50,571 nucleotides of DNA from Bacillota bacterium (GTDB lineage: Bacteria; Bacillota; Dethiobacteria; Dethiobacterales; Dethiobacteraceae): positions 1-50,571 of the forward strand of contig JAAZIQ010000085.1 of the NCBI GenBank assembly GCA_012800795.1. The letters run 5' to 3'. The notes beneath the pieces were generated by a model, which was given only the letters and a program-made list of their open reading frames with translations, searched no databases and was not told the origin of the DNA. Shown here in pieces: positions 10,974 to 15,315 of this stretch; the stretch's first letter is position 1, and each line of letters starts with the position of its first letter. The position numbers and the translations under genes are program-made.

Positions 10974-11144
10974 ATGGCCAGCTTTAAAAACAATGGGCAT
11001 CTCCTATTGCAGCAAGGAATGATTTATTTTAGTTAAAATTCTTTAGTAGTCAAAAAAGGCGCCAATGATACCACTTATCAAGATTCCGTTGTCTCTGTTA
11101 ATAGAAACGGCAAGCTGTTACAAGAAACCAAATTTTTTGTTTAA
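10974..11144 (+). pseudogene. possible decayed small gene
   Basis: On the plus strand an ATG at 10974 opens a 20-codon frame that stops at TAA 11034 and continues in the same frame for another 35 codons to TAA 11142. The second part (VVKKGANDTTYQDSVVSV and NGKLLQETKFFV) looks protein-like. No ribosome binding site precedes the ATG and I recognise no family. With the fragment at 10814-10960 it suggests that this gap holds remains of former genes. Confidence 0.2.
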
Positions 11145-11155
11145 GCTAATAATAA

Positions 11156-11195
11156 AAAAGTTGGGATCAGACCGTAAATGTCTTTCCCAACTTTT
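11156..11195 (-). terminator. terminator after nagB
   Basis: A perfect 11-bp inverted repeat (11156-11166 with 11185-11195, loop 18 bases) lies just downstream of the nagB stop. T-rich sequence flanks it on both sides, so it could work in both directions. Confidence 0.7.
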
Positions 11196-11206
11196 GTTTT
11201 ACTTAG

Positions 11207-11929
11207 CTACAGATACTTGGCAGCAGCTTTATCTATAATAAATGTACAGTCTGGATGCAACTGCAAAATAGAAGCGGGAACGCCAGGGTTTATTTCACCC
11301 GTTACAGCTTCCTTGATGGCGTGTGCTTTCCCTTCGCCATTTGCCAAAAGCAGTATTTTTTTTGCCTGCATAATTGTTTTAATCCCCATAGTAATGGCCC
11401 GGGTCGGCACTTCTTCCCGGGAAGGGAAAAAGCGAGCATTATCATTAATGGTGTCAGCGTCCAATTCTACCAAGTGCGTCTCAGCAATAAATACGGTTGA
11501 CGGTTCGTTAAAACCTATATGCCCGTTTCTACCAATACCCAATACTTGTAGATCCAGGCCATTTGCTTGCTTGATGGCTTCTTCATAGCGTATGCATTCA
11601 TCATCAACATTTTCCGCCAAACCATTGGGGATATGGATATTCTCCGGCTTTACATTAACATGTTTAAAAAAGTTTTCATGCATAAAATAATGGTAACTCT
11701 GAACATTATCAGGAGATAAACCCCAATATTCATCTAAATTAAAAGTAATAACGTGACTAAAATCCAAACCTTGCTGATGCAGCTTTACCAATTCTTTATA
11801 CATTCCAATCGGTGTACTGCCTGTGCAAAGGCCAAGAATGCTGTCAGCCTTCATTGTTATTTGTCCGGCTACAATTAGTGCTGCTTTTACACTCATTTGC
11901 TCATAATCATCAACTATATATACGCGCAT
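11207..11929 (-). CDS. nagB: glucosamine-6-phosphate deaminase NagB, behind a glmS ribozyme
   Basis: Catalyses the reversible reaction GlcN6P + H2O = fructose-6-phosphate + NH4+. The 240-residue chain is full length, with the substrate loop [10 protein letters not shown], the aspartate in NLDEYW (about D66) and the active-site stretch [11 protein letters not shown] containing H137 and E142. There is no glutaminase domain, so it is not GlmS. It occupies the place glmS holds in Bacillus-type cdaA-cdaR-glmM-glmS operons and is preceded by a well-conserved glmS ribozyme. Product-activated cleavage of its leader makes sense mainly if the enzyme runs toward GlcN6P synthesis, which is an inference. 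The ATG at 11929 has GGAGG six bases upstream. A terminator follows. Confidence 0.95.
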
Positions 11930-11970
11930 AAATAACCTCCATCAGCAATGCAGCTGTTAAGAATAGTCTA

Positions 11971-11990
11971 TTAATTTGCGGACAAATTAA
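11971..11990 (-). repeat. hairpin between ribozyme and nagB
   Basis: TTAATTTG and CAAATTAA form a perfect 8-bp inverted repeat with a 4-base loop directly downstream of the ribozyme. There is no U-tract, so it is not an obvious terminator. It may isolate or stabilise the ribozyme 3' end. Confidence 0.4.
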
Positions 11991-11995
11991 CCTGG

Positions 11996-12136
11996 CAAAA
12001 TCGCACCCGAACCTTTTGTCCCGAAAATCGCTTTTCGGTTTTGTGGGCTCTTTCACGGTCGTAGCTCAACCGGGAGGCATCCGCCGAATCTTCGATTAAC
12101 CTCCACCTCGTCAACACCCAAAGGTGTTCTGGCGCT
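11996..12136 (-). ncRNA. glmS ribozyme (self-cleaving, GlcN6P-responsive)
   Basis: The minus-strand RNA starts with A-GCGCC (cleavage expected between 12136 and 12135), then a short P1 hairpin (GAACACC with GGTGTT), the invariant core GTTGACGAGG, GGTTAATCGA, TTCGGCGGATG and CCTCCCGG, a P3 stem CGGT...ACCG, and a P4 domain with a CCGAAAA...TTTTCGG hairpin. This matches the glmS ribozyme in order and in core bases. It begins only about 30 nt after the glmM stop, leaving no room for a promoter in the gap, so it must be carried on the glmM transcript or on one starting inside glmM. The gene behind it is nagB, not glmS. The 3' boundary is approximate. Confidence 0.95.
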
Positions 12137-12165
12137 TAATATTCAGTTGTAATGAGCATCCCCCC

Positions 12166-13509
12166 TTATGCAAGTTCATTTTTGATGATTTGTGCCAGGT
12201 TATTAGCCATCATTTGCAAATCTGTTTCCTTTGTTCCCTCTAACATTACACGTATCAGCGGTTCAGTACCGGAAGGACGAACTAGAAGTCTACCCTGACC
12301 GGCTAATTTTTTTTCTGTCGCCTGTATAGCTGCCTGAATGCGCGGGTTTTGCTCCCAGCCGTCTCTTTTTTTAACACGGCAGTTAACCAAAACCTGTGGA
12401 TAACGCGTATAAGCAGCAGCCAGTTGACCCAGCGGCATTTTTTTCTCGGCAATAACATTGGCTAAATGCAGTGCTGTCAGCAGACCGTCTCCCGTTGTAT
12501 TATGCTGCAGCAGAATGATATGGCCTGATTGTTCACCACCAAGAATGCATCCTTCTGCCAGCATCCTTTCCAACACATAGCGGTCTCCCACTTTGGTACG
12601 CAGCAGTTTAAATCCATGTTCCTGCGCCGCCTTCTCCAAGCCCATGTTGCTCATGACAGTGGCCACAAGCGTGTTCTTTTTAAGCTGGCCTTTTTCCCTT
12701 AAATAAATTGCCAGGATTGTCATGATTGCATCGCCGTCAATAAGCTGTCCATTGCTATCTGCCGCCAGCACTCTATCTGCATCACCGTCAAAAGTAAAAC
12801 CAAAGTCAGCCTTGTGCTTTTGCACCAGCGAAATTATTGCTTCGGGGCAAGTTGAACCGCAATGACGGTTGATATTGACACCATTGGGAGAATCATTACA
12901 CGAAATAACTTCTGCTCCCAAAGCTTTAAATGCCTTTGGTGCCAGGCTGTATACCGCTCCGTTGGCACAATCCAGCACCACACGGTAACCATCAAGCCGG
13001 CAGGAAACTGTGGAAAGTATATACTGCAGATAACGTTCGCCGGCGGTTGGATCGTGCAGGACACGACCAAGGGCGTCAGCATCCGGGCGCGGCAGTGTAT
13101 CTTTATCCTGGAAATACAGCTTCTCTATTTCTTCTTCCACTTCATCCGGCAGTTTAAATCCTTCGCAATTAAAGAATTTTATGCCATTATCGGGATAAAG
13201 GTTATGAGAAGCAGAAATCATGACACCACCGCAGCAGTCGTCTACCTGCCTTACCAGATAGGCCGCGGCAGGTGTGGAAATAACACCGACATTATAAACA
13301 TTAACCCCGACGGAAGTAATGCCGGCAATTAATGCACCTTCCAACATTGAGCCGGAAATACGAGTATCACGAGCAAGCAGGAAAGCATTTTTACCACTGT
13401 TTTGCTGCAGCACATAAGCACCAATGCGACCAATCTTAAATGCCAATTCAGGCGTCAAATCCTTATTGGCCACACCACGAATACCGTCTGTACCAAATAA
13501 TTTTCCCAT
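12166..13509 (-). CDS. glmM: phosphoglucosamine mutase GlmM
   Basis: Converts glucosamine-6-phosphate to glucosamine-1-phosphate on the way to UDP-GlcNAc and cell wall. The N-terminus GKLFGTDGIRG and the active-site loop ISASHN with phosphoserine S101 are present, as are the metal loop DGDADR and the phosphate-binding RPSGTEPLIRV near the C-terminus. Length is 447 residues, normal for GlmM. The ATG at 13509 is chosen because AGGAGGTG lies directly upstream; an in-frame start nine codons earlier has no site. It follows cdaR by 60 bp in the operon cdaA-cdaR-glmM and is followed by the glmS ribozyme. Confidence 0.97.
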   Translation of the reverse strand: MGKLFGTDGIRGVANKDLTPELAFKIGRIGAYVLQQNSGKNAFLLARDTRISGSMLEGALIAGITSVGVNVYNVGVISTPAAAYLVRQVDDCCGGVMISASHNLYPDNGIKFFNCEGFKLPDEVEEEIEKLYFQDKDTLPRPDADALGRVLHDPTAGERYLQYILSTVSCRLDGYRVVLDCANGAVYSLAPKAFKALGAEVISCNDSPNGVNINRHCGSTCPEAIISLVQKHKADFGFTFDGDADRVLAADSNGQLIDGDAIMTILAIYLREKGQLKKNTLVATVMSNMGLEKAAQEHGFKLLRTKVGDRYVLERMLAEGCILGGEQSGHIILLQHNTTGDGLLTALHLANVIAEKKMPLGQLAAAYTRYPQVLVNCRVKKRDGWEQNPRIQAAIQATEKKLAGQGRLLVRPSGTEPLIRVMLEGTKETDLQMMANNLAQIIKNELA

Positions 13510-13569
13510 CTTTTCACCTCCTTTCAGGCAGGACATTTTAGTATAGCACAGCTTCTATAGTTTTGACAA

Positions 13570-14499
13570 TCATTCTGGTACGATAATAATTTCCACCTCT
13601 ACCTCTGTTGTGAGGGTTTTTACATTTTCCGGAATCTTTAGCGCTAAGGAAAAAGTTTTATTCCCTGTAGCACCGGTAATATCTGCCGGTTCTGTGATTA
13701 ATTTATCTATTGTTTTCAGTTGACCTTCAGCAGCTTCCACAGTGACAGACGGGGGATTGACTTTAATCTCCTGCACTTTAAAACCTGCGGCAGGTTCACC
13801 CTCTAGAGGCACCTCAATTTCCACCTCTTTGCGTGGTTGTGAAAGAGGAATGGAAACCTCCACAACTTGCGGAGCAATTTCTACACCCTCCACCACCTGA
13901 CCACTGCTGTCTACGGCCTGCACCGGAACAATACGTGTTAAATTTTCTCCTGCTTCATTTATATTCACAATTACCCTAACACGTTCTATAGTTTGCAAAG
14001 CTGATTTGGCACCCCTGACAAAGACGGAACTGGGATTGATCTTTACTTCCCCCATCACAAAACCTGCAGCAGGTGTTCCCATCACATCCAATACTACCGG
14101 TATTTGCAAAGATTGAATTTCTTCCAGTTCCACAACCACCTGCTGCGGTTCAATGGAAAGCACTGTCACTCCCGCAGGCACTTCTACCTGAGGTGTTATA
14201 CTATGCCGTCCTACCCCTAGATTGCGCAAATCCACAAAGGCCTGTACATTTTGAGGCGTCATACTATTTAAAACATTAGAACGACCCCTTAATACTACTT
14301 CAACTTGCTCGGGAATCTCTGCAATGGCCACCTCTGCGCCCAAATTTAACCACGCTAAAGGTATATTGCTGTAAGTCATGGTTATCTCATTGGGAAGACT
14401 GTCACGGACAGCATCTCCGGTCACAAAGGCCCAGAAAATTATTGCCATAAAAAATGCAGCCAGTTTGAGCACAAAATTATTTTTTAAACGATCCAACAT
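13570..14499 (-). CDS. cdaR: CdaR, YbbR-domain regulator of diadenylate cyclase
   Basis: Membrane-anchored extracytoplasmic protein that in other Bacillota modulates CdaA. One N-terminal transmembrane segment (LKLAAFFMAIIFWAFVTG) is followed by about three or four YbbR repeats of some 75 residues, recognisable by recurring V-x-P-x-x-V-x-V and I-x-x-V-x-T patterns such as INPSSVFVRG and VNPPSVTVEA. Its ATG abuts the cdaA stop with no gap, so translation is coupled. The arrangement cdaA-cdaR-glmM is the conserved one that links c-di-AMP to cell-wall precursor supply. Confidence 0.93.
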   Translation of the reverse strand: MLDRLKNNFVLKLAAFFMAIIFWAFVTGDAVRDSLPNEITMTYSNIPLAWLNLGAEVAIAEIPEQVEVVLRGRSNVLNSMTPQNVQAFVDLRNLGVGRHSITPQVEVPAGVTVLSIEPQQVVVELEEIQSLQIPVVLDVMGTPAAGFVMGEVKINPSSVFVRGAKSALQTIERVRVIVNINEAGENLTRIVPVQAVDSSGQVVEGVEIAPQVVEVSIPLSQPRKEVEIEVPLEGEPAAGFKVQEIKVNPPSVTVEAAEGQLKTIDKLITEPADITGATGNKTFSLALKIPENVKTLTTEVEVEIIIVPE

Positions 14500-15315
14500 T
14501 TAACTCGACCTCCACTGCCAGAAACTGCTGATGGGATTAGTTGTTGGCTTGCAGAGATTAATCAACATCTGTTTTAGTGTTGTATCATCGAGATAGCGGG
14601 TTAATTCACCGTCATTTGTTAATGAGACAGCACCCGTTTCTTCTGAAACTACAATGCAGATTGCATCTGATTGTTCAGAAAGACCCAGCGCCGCCCGATG
14701 GCGCGTCCCCAATCCCTTACTTAAATTAGGATTTTCCGTCAGCGGTAAAAAGCAGCCCGCAGCTATTATTCTGTTGCCGCGGATAATAAGCGCACCATCA
14801 TGCAGTGGACTGCGAGGCATAAAAATATTAATTAAAAGTTCAGCCGAAATTTGTCCATCAATAACTATGCCTGTCTCTACTATTTCGTTTAAACCTGTTT
14901 CTCTTTCCAAAACGATCAGGGCACCAACACGTTTCTTAACTAATACCTGGATGGCTTTAATTATTTCTTCCAACATCCGGTCGAAATCGGCATCACCATA
15001 AAGTTGACTGCTGCGAGTAAATATTTTGCCTCTTCCCAATGTCTCCAGAGCTCGTCTAAGTTCAGGCTGAAAAACTATGGGGATAGCTACAATCCCCATG
15101 GTCATAAAATTGGTCAGCAGCCAGTCAAAGGCATAAAGTTTTAACTGTCGGCTTACCACAGTGGCAATCAGCAGAACAGCTAGTCCCTTTACAAGCTGCT
15201 CAGCACGTGTGCCGCGAATTAAAACAATTGCTTTATAAAAGACAAAGGTGACGATGGCAATGTCTAAAATACTGCGCCAGCTAAACGTACTGATGATCTG
15301 GAGAATCTGCGTCAT
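14500..15315 (-). CDS. cdaA: diadenylate cyclase CdaA
   Basis: Makes c-di-AMP from two ATP. Three N-terminal membrane segments are followed by a DAC domain with the metal-binding motif DGALIIRG (about residue 172) and the nucleotide-binding motif GTRHRAALGLSEQSDA. At 271 residues it matches the CdaA/DacA family. It is first in cdaA-cdaR-glmM-[ribozyme]-nagB. GGAGGTG lies upstream of the ATG at 15315. In the 109-bp gap before it I see a weak TTGCAG/TAACAT promoter-like pair, not convincing enough to list. Confidence 0.96.
   Translation of the reverse strand: MTQILQIISTFSWRSILDIAIVTFVFYKAIVLIRGTRAEQLVKGLAVLLIATVVSRQLKLYAFDWLLTNFMTMGIVAIPIVFQPELRRALETLGRGKIFTRSSQLYGDADFDRMLEEIIKAIQVLVKKRVGALIVLERETGLNEIVETGIVIDGQISAELLINIFMPRSPLHDGALIIRGNRIIAAGCFLPLTENPNLSKGLGTRHRAALGLSEQSDAICIVVSEETGAVSLTNDGELTRYLDDTTLKQMLINLCKPTTNPISSFWQWRSS

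Follow-up and report, generated by a model that had tools for sequence, protein, structure and literature searches.

A predicted glmS ribozyme stands upstream of nagB, in the position of glmS, in several genomes of one bacterial family

The window analysed here, the whole stretch of 50,571 nucleotides, carries a predicted glmS-class self-cleaving ribozyme directly upstream of nagB, and the same junction recurs in other genomes of the family. We put forward that this ribozyme is probably a product-feedback switch on a NagB that aminates fructose-6-phosphate to glucosamine-6-phosphate (GlcN6P). The usual context of the glmS ribozyme is upstream of glmS, and the nagB and glmS families are unrelated. 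What is new here is the pairing of a glmS ribozyme with nagB; the RNA and the protein are each of a known class. On the minus strand the gene order is cdaA-cdaR-glmM-ribozyme-nagB, with the following features:

14500..15315, minus strand: cdaA, diadenylate cyclase (TIGR00159, 270 bits)
13570..14499, minus strand: cdaR, YbbR-domain protein (PF07949, 102 bits)
12166..13536, minus strand: glmM, phosphoglucosamine mutase (TIGR01455, 568 bits)
12136..12159, minus strand: short upstream ORF, MLITTEY-stop, directly after glmM and with its own Shine-Dalgarno sequence at 12160-12165
11997..12147, minus strand: predicted glmS-class self-cleaving ribozyme (Rfam RF00234, full model 1-167)
11936..11940, minus strand: Shine-Dalgarno sequence of nagB, GGAGG, 3' of the ribozyme (read from the sequence)
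11207..11929, minus strand: nagB, B. subtilis-type glucosamine-6-phosphate deaminase/isomerase of 240 aa (TIGR00502, 2bkv)
11156..11195, minus strand: terminator-like hairpin with U-run after nagB, closing the unit (RNA fold)

Relatives normally have glmS after glmM and the ribozyme, so that nagB occupies the place where glmS is expected, as the sequence-only reading of this DNA had claimed. The match to the RF00234 covariance model scores 104.6 bits (cut-off 37; E 1.5e-23) and is the sole gathering-level Rfam match within the window. Throughout the assembly of the window's genome (G000; 1.67 Mb in 99 contigs, 90.4% complete) there is one glmS-ribozyme match, this nagB-linked copy. Cleavage is predicted between A12136 and G12135, in the context AA/GCGCC (the slash marks the cut). 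The sequence-only reading had recognised the conserved core and the cleavage context, and both hold; it had placed the RNA at 11996-12136, where the site is right and the limits are not, since the model covers 11997-12147.

Sixty columns are invariant in all 24 aligned ribozyme copies, the cleavage context and core included, and the stretches AAGCGC, TGACGAGG, ATCGA and TCGGCGG are shared by the 24, nagB-linked copies among them. The alignment has 34 helix pairs, with 95.7% of their cells paired. Double-sided changes are seen in 18 of them, against 10.5 in shuffles, which ignore relatedness; none of 500 shuffles reaches that number. Slid control structures reach a covariation score far below that of the true structure, a comparison that favours the latter in that the reference structure derives from one aligned sequence. 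Both-sided switches occur in P1 and P4 among the nagB-linked copies alone (e.g., C-G to G-C, A-U to G-C), and the helix in columns 118-122/187-191 fits those copies more poorly (80.4% of cells paired over all copies). Identity over the ribozyme span is 92.4% versus 70.2% over the spacer for G000 and G001, and 95.5% versus 48.1% for G008 and G014. Score, core with cleavage context, and helix covariation all agree with RF00234, and the downstream gene is nagB where glmS would be expected; by these features the window RNA, its unusual neighbour aside, belongs to the glmS ribozyme class. A chance match as its origin is ruled out by the score together with the covariation. The pattern of conservation indicates that the ribozyme is under selection, nagB-linked copies included.

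A spacer of 67 nt separates the 3' end of the ribozyme from the start of nagB, and the ribozyme-glmS spacing elsewhere in the family is 23-81 nt (10 copies). Within the interval is an A/T-rich perfect hairpin without a U-run, TTAATTTG-TCCG-CAAATTAA (window 11971-11990); in its place G001 has a different sequence, by eye an imperfect inverted repeat. The last nucleotide of the stop codon of the short upstream ORF is the one immediately 5' of the cleavage site, and this ORF may be incidental. By a simple rule, a Shine-Dalgarno sequence with ATG lies ahead of 13 of 23 ribozymes, against about 1 in mononucleotide shuffles, and the peptides seem unconserved. At the other end of the unit, the region 11140-11210 folds at -24.5 kcal/mol (z -5.76; 0 of 200 shuffles equally stable), and the hairpin at 11156-11195 is absent from the list of the consensus terminator scan.

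With the TIGR00502 equivalog model the nagB product reaches 303 bits (cut-off 236.9), and its best solved relative is B. subtilis NagB, 2bkv (E 4.6e-74). Pfam finds the Glucosamine_iso domain alone, with no glutaminase or SIS domain, so the domain composition is not that of GlmS; a true GlmS, that of G007 (L037), has both. A full-length NagB lacking a glutaminase domain, as read earlier from the letters, is therefore what the window encodes. An intact active site had also been claimed. The active-site residues D66, H137 and E142 bear this out and are invariant in the 8 aligned family NagB proteins; the claim needs amending at the position of E. coli Asp141, which Asn135 occupies instead, as in 2bkv. 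In three pairs the dN/dS of nagB is 0.057 (G000 versus the same-genus copy), 0.087 and 0.074, the fourth pair being saturated, and by these ratios nagB is under purifying selection. The window protein and its closest solved relative, the B. subtilis-type NagB (2bkv/2bkx), are alike in length (240 versus 242 aa) and share a 13-residue motif; they differ in setting, since nagB here follows a GlcN6P ribozyme within an operon for cell-wall precursors, in a family without NagA over the cut-off. Set beside RF00234-glmS systems, the locus agrees with the ribozyme-glmS genomes of the family in model match, core, cleavage site and position after glmM, whereas the controlled gene is nagB and the nitrogen donor is possibly ammonium rather than glutamine.

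Our survey covered 59 genomes, 19 of the same family (G000-G018). The ribozyme is present in 18 of the 19, in 19 copies; G004 gave no match under filters that lose weak matches. Ten copies are followed by glmS, five by nagB and three by glmM, and one copy is at a contig end, G017 having a contig that stops after the ribozyme and before nagB. Direct ribozyme-nagB junctions are thus found in five of the 19 family genomes (G000, G001, G007, G008, G014), from three genera, and this recurrence rules out mis-assembly of the junction. Both g1 (G000, G001) and g7 (G007) have the order cdaA-cdaR-glmM-ribozyme-nagB, while in g8 (G008, G014) ribozyme and nagB stand together, apart from glmM. Upstream in g8 all three aligned sequences, G017 included, share an unchanged promoter-like site, TTGTCA-17-TATACT, which has an extended -10 TG. 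It is suggestive only, because scanning G008 gives 4 such sites where shuffles give 0.6, and one on the minus strand in the same place matches better (11 versus 10 of 12).

The copies directly before glmM belong to G009, G015 and, as the first of its two, G010. In g9 (G009, G015) the ribozyme heads glmM-acetyltransferase-nagB. The acetyltransferase is similar to the C-terminal portion of archaeal-type GlmU, although its score in G015, 142.6 bits, is under the model cut-off of 292.1. The order in G010 is ribozyme-glmM-ribozyme-glmS-acetyltransferase-unknown-nagB. Its two ribozymes (L035 6941-7094 and 8598-8751) lie 1.5 kb apart and flank glmM, and cutting at both would free glmM as a separate message. 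TIGR00502 NagB matches occur in 8 of the 19 family genomes; in seven of these nagB lies behind the ribozyme in a unit without glmS, and the eighth is G010. GlmS over the cut-off is found in 14 of the 19 and is missing from G000, G001, G009, G014 and G015. NagA, the usual catabolic partner of NagB, is over the cut-off in none of the 19, some of which give short sub-threshold matches.

Beyond the family, under stricter filters that lose weak matches, the ribozyme occurs in 23 of 97 genomes of the class, all within the examined set, and no ribozyme-nagB pair was found outside the family among the 97. A fuzzy core pattern that recovered the known ribozyme copies found none near the named nagB genes in the best 80 of at least 583 confirmed matches (two loci, L076 and L126, have fewer than 400 bases upstream of nagB); a NagA match falls within the examined flanks of 35 of these 80. 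In G025 and G027 glmM and nagB are adjacent, with neither ribozyme nor GlmS over the cut-off, and G025 carries a NagA; G053 has glmM-nagB plus a GlmS. Candidatus Aerophobetes (JAGGVN010000129.1; L089 5541-9052) has Arch_GlmM, NagB and alt_bact_glmU in a row, apparently a UDP-GlcNAc operon with NagB in the role of GlmS, and there the fuzzy pattern finds no ribozyme. GlmS over the cut-off is missing from 18 of the 59 genomes, among them G026 with a GlmS fragment at a contig end. NagB matches are present in 13 of these 18, two only as sub-cut-off fragments, versus 15 of the 41 with GlmS, counts that ignore relatedness. Five of the 18 (G022, G026, G030, G036, G050) have neither, which shows that an assembly may lack GlmS and yet have no NagB in its stead.

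The phylogenetic analyses provide clues on how nagB came to its place. Our NagB tree has 52 rows, 26 from the class and 26 of the 80 named proteins (the best 80 of at least 583). The sequences of g1, g7 and g8 form one clade (100/99) among NagB mostly of other Bacillota, and the closest named NagB among the matches listed is that of Fonticella tunisiensis (65% identity). Another clade (96/89) unites G009, G015 and G010 with the majority of class NagB. Four named proteins, three carrying a halanaerobial label, form a separate branch within it, and a further two named sequences belong to it as well. Outside both clades are G033, G037 and G045, and support for the deeper branching around the g1 clade is weak (88/90, 98/76). 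Because the g1 NagB lies outside the class-typical clade, it looks like a non-orthologous replacement in place. The non-homologous replacement of glmS suggested earlier gains support from this position and from the arrangement in five genomes of three genera.

In the GlmM tree (24 rows) g9 joins g10 (99/97), away from g1, g7 and g8. The latter group with g2 (84/92), which has ribozyme-glmS, and the tree gives no resolution on g1, g7 and g8 as a clade alone. These branching patterns suggest two origins of nagB downstream of the ribozyme. As glmS is still present in G010, the most economical account has at least two losses of glmS from the locus and two routes by which nagB came under the ribozyme. 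A G010-like ancestral operon minus glmS is ruled out as the source of the g1 arrangement, since the NagB of g1, g7 and g8 are not sisters of that of G010; the g9 arrangement may have arisen by glmS deletion from a G010-like operon.

In G000 we found no GlmS (TIGR01135) over the cut-off and no SIS domain anywhere in the genome, which rules out a SIS-only GlcN6P synthase and agrees with the earlier proposal. Three sub-threshold TIGR01135 matches are, from their translations, two PurF copies and an AsnB-like protein, and no hidden GlmS; the PurF copies adjoin purL, one being cut by a contig end. A second, ribozyme-controlled glmS, which would have counted against the proposal, was not found in G000 either. 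NagB may well be the main or only source of GlcN6P in g1 and g9. A second GlmS, full-length (771-785 bits), ribozyme-free and beside purA, is present in G007, G008 and G017 (g7, g8). It is distant from native GlmS, and its contigs agree in GC with the host, leaving contamination unsupported as its source. NagB is therefore not the only route to GlcN6P in these three genomes. In the overall interpretation first offered, ribozyme-nagB in the glmS position stands, and NagB as the sole GlcN6P source is conjectural, a second GlmS being present in g7 and g8. The region of the second GlmS may be a horizontally gained cluster. At these loci (L037, L038 and L184 in G007 and G008) the gene lies in G007 also beside glnA, near nadE-like and nitrogen genes, and G008 has purC and a second glnA on another contig; several of these gene names are read from translations.

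Purine genes bear on the same question. PurA is absent over the cut-off in exactly the five GlmS-less family genomes, of ten tested. PurB is over the cut-off in none of the five, that of G007 being sub-cut-off and cut by a contig end, and PurC over the cut-off is missing from the five and from G007, a shorter paralogue being present. The purine operon of G000, purE to purS, has a gap of ~50 bases where G010 has purB and purC (names from translations). Two purL-purF regions are apparently present in each g1 genome (L163 and L003 in G000, L164 and L189 in G001), and the stretches read there contain no purB. GlnA gives one match each in g1 and g9, likewise in G003, which has GlmS and PurA. Either the five GlmS-less genomes truly lack purA, purB and purC, or a block possibly carrying a second glmS is missing from their assemblies; the co-absence of PurA and PurB, with the purA-linked GlmS of g7 and g8, makes an assembly gap possible.

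In the mechanism we favour, NagB would run its textbook reaction in reverse, forming GlcN6P by amination of fructose-6-phosphate with ammonium. Accumulated GlcN6P would lead the ribozyme to cut the mRNA 5' of nagB, and the cut nagB message would be degraded. Such decay of the cut message is known from the glmS ribozyme of B. subtilis. On the line to g1, g7 and g8, glmS just behind the ribozyme would have given way to a nagB foreign to the class-typical clade, and the ribozyme would have kept its old ligand and logic; in g9, a class-typical nagB would have come under the ribozyme heading glmM-acetyltransferase-nagB, after a separate loss of glmS. An off-switch activated by GlcN6P suits an enzyme that makes GlcN6P and would run backwards on one that destroys it. 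We prefer product feedback on an aminating NagB because of this switch logic, the lack of NagA, the glmM-nagB adjacency, the Aerophobetes row, the GlmS and NagB counts and the NagB of Giardia. The genomic context, with no NagA over the cut-off in 19 family genomes, argues against a catabolic, deaminating NagB. As to the fuller scenario, in which one family lost glmS twice and on both occasions recruited an ammonium-using NagB as the GlcN6P synthase of the cell under the inherited ribozyme, we consider the case evenly poised.

McCown 2011 is said to be the main survey of glmS ribozymes. We found no description of a ribozyme upstream of nagB in the glmS ribozyme and nagB literature covered, which consisted mostly of titles and the starts of abstracts, that survey lying outside it, and the word nagB does not occur in the available part of a recent glmS ribozyme paper (PMC11602151). 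According to the accessible text on Giardia NagB, the enzyme efficiently forms GlcN6P from fructose-6-phosphate and ammonia, with a Km for NH4Cl near 20 mM and a higher Vmax than for deamination, although NagB usually does so only at high substrate levels and is catabolic in most organisms (PMC4281351). Giardia lamblia thus offers a GlcN6P-making NagB, as proposed here; it is a eukaryote, and that text makes no mention of a ribozyme (PMC4281351). Akkermansia muciniphila, as portrayed in the part of the source at hand, is a bacterium with NagB and without GlmS, in which NagB is physiologically non-aminating (Km 41 mM for NH4, 5.5 mM for fructose-6-phosphate) and GlcNAc or GalNAc is required; a ribozyme link goes unmentioned there (PMC5902328). 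We read Akkermansia as a counter-precedent to an aminating NagB in a GlmS-less bacterium.

That precedent lends some weight to an alternative in which NagB is mainly a deaminase for imported or recycled glucosamine, restrained by the ribozyme, with GlcN6P supplied by a second GlmS missing from the g1 and g9 assemblies. The second GlmS of G007, G008 and G017, on contigs matching the host in GC, would fit, as would the joint absence of PurA and PurB from the five GlmS-less genomes and the NagA matches flanking 35 of the 80 named NagB loci (the best 80 of at least 583). Nevertheless, a GlcN6P-triggered off-switch on a consumer of GlcN6P would be perverse feedback, no NagA passes the cut-off in the family, nagB seems to have arrived behind the ribozyme in two separate origins, and it follows glmM or glmM-acetyltransferase in several genomes. 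We consider this alternative unlikely, if worth keeping in mind.

The ribozyme might also be a leftover, decayed or only trimming the 3' end of the glmM message, with nagB there by happenstance, as its position directly after glmM in g1 and g7 would allow. The chances of this seem slim given the invariant core and helix covariation in nagB-linked copies and the better conservation of the ribozyme than of the spacer; moreover, in g8 (G008, G014) ribozyme and nagB are separated from glmM and preceded by a promoter-like site, and in g9 the ribozyme precedes glmM. Slimmer again are those of an amino-sugar auxotroph like Akkermansia, whose NagB only balances salvaged GlcN6P. Small genomes (1.67 Mb in G000 and 1.8 Mb in G001 versus 2.0-3.2 Mb in the other 17 of the family) and missing purine genes hint at such dependence, but no NagA passes the cut-off, cdaA-cdaR-glmM is retained, and the logic of the ribozyme would be reversed.

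The function of a gene is often guessed from the riboswitch upstream of it. In this family the ribozyme points, in two lineages, to amination as the direction of an enzyme annotated as a deaminase. If product feedback on an aminating NagB is the true reading, free ammonium can replace glutamine in the synthesis of peptidoglycan precursors, and some walled bacteria manage without GlmS, so that NagB annotations in GlmS-less genomes would need a second look. A feedback RNA would then have stayed faithful to its metabolite while the enzyme was swapped for an unrelated one.
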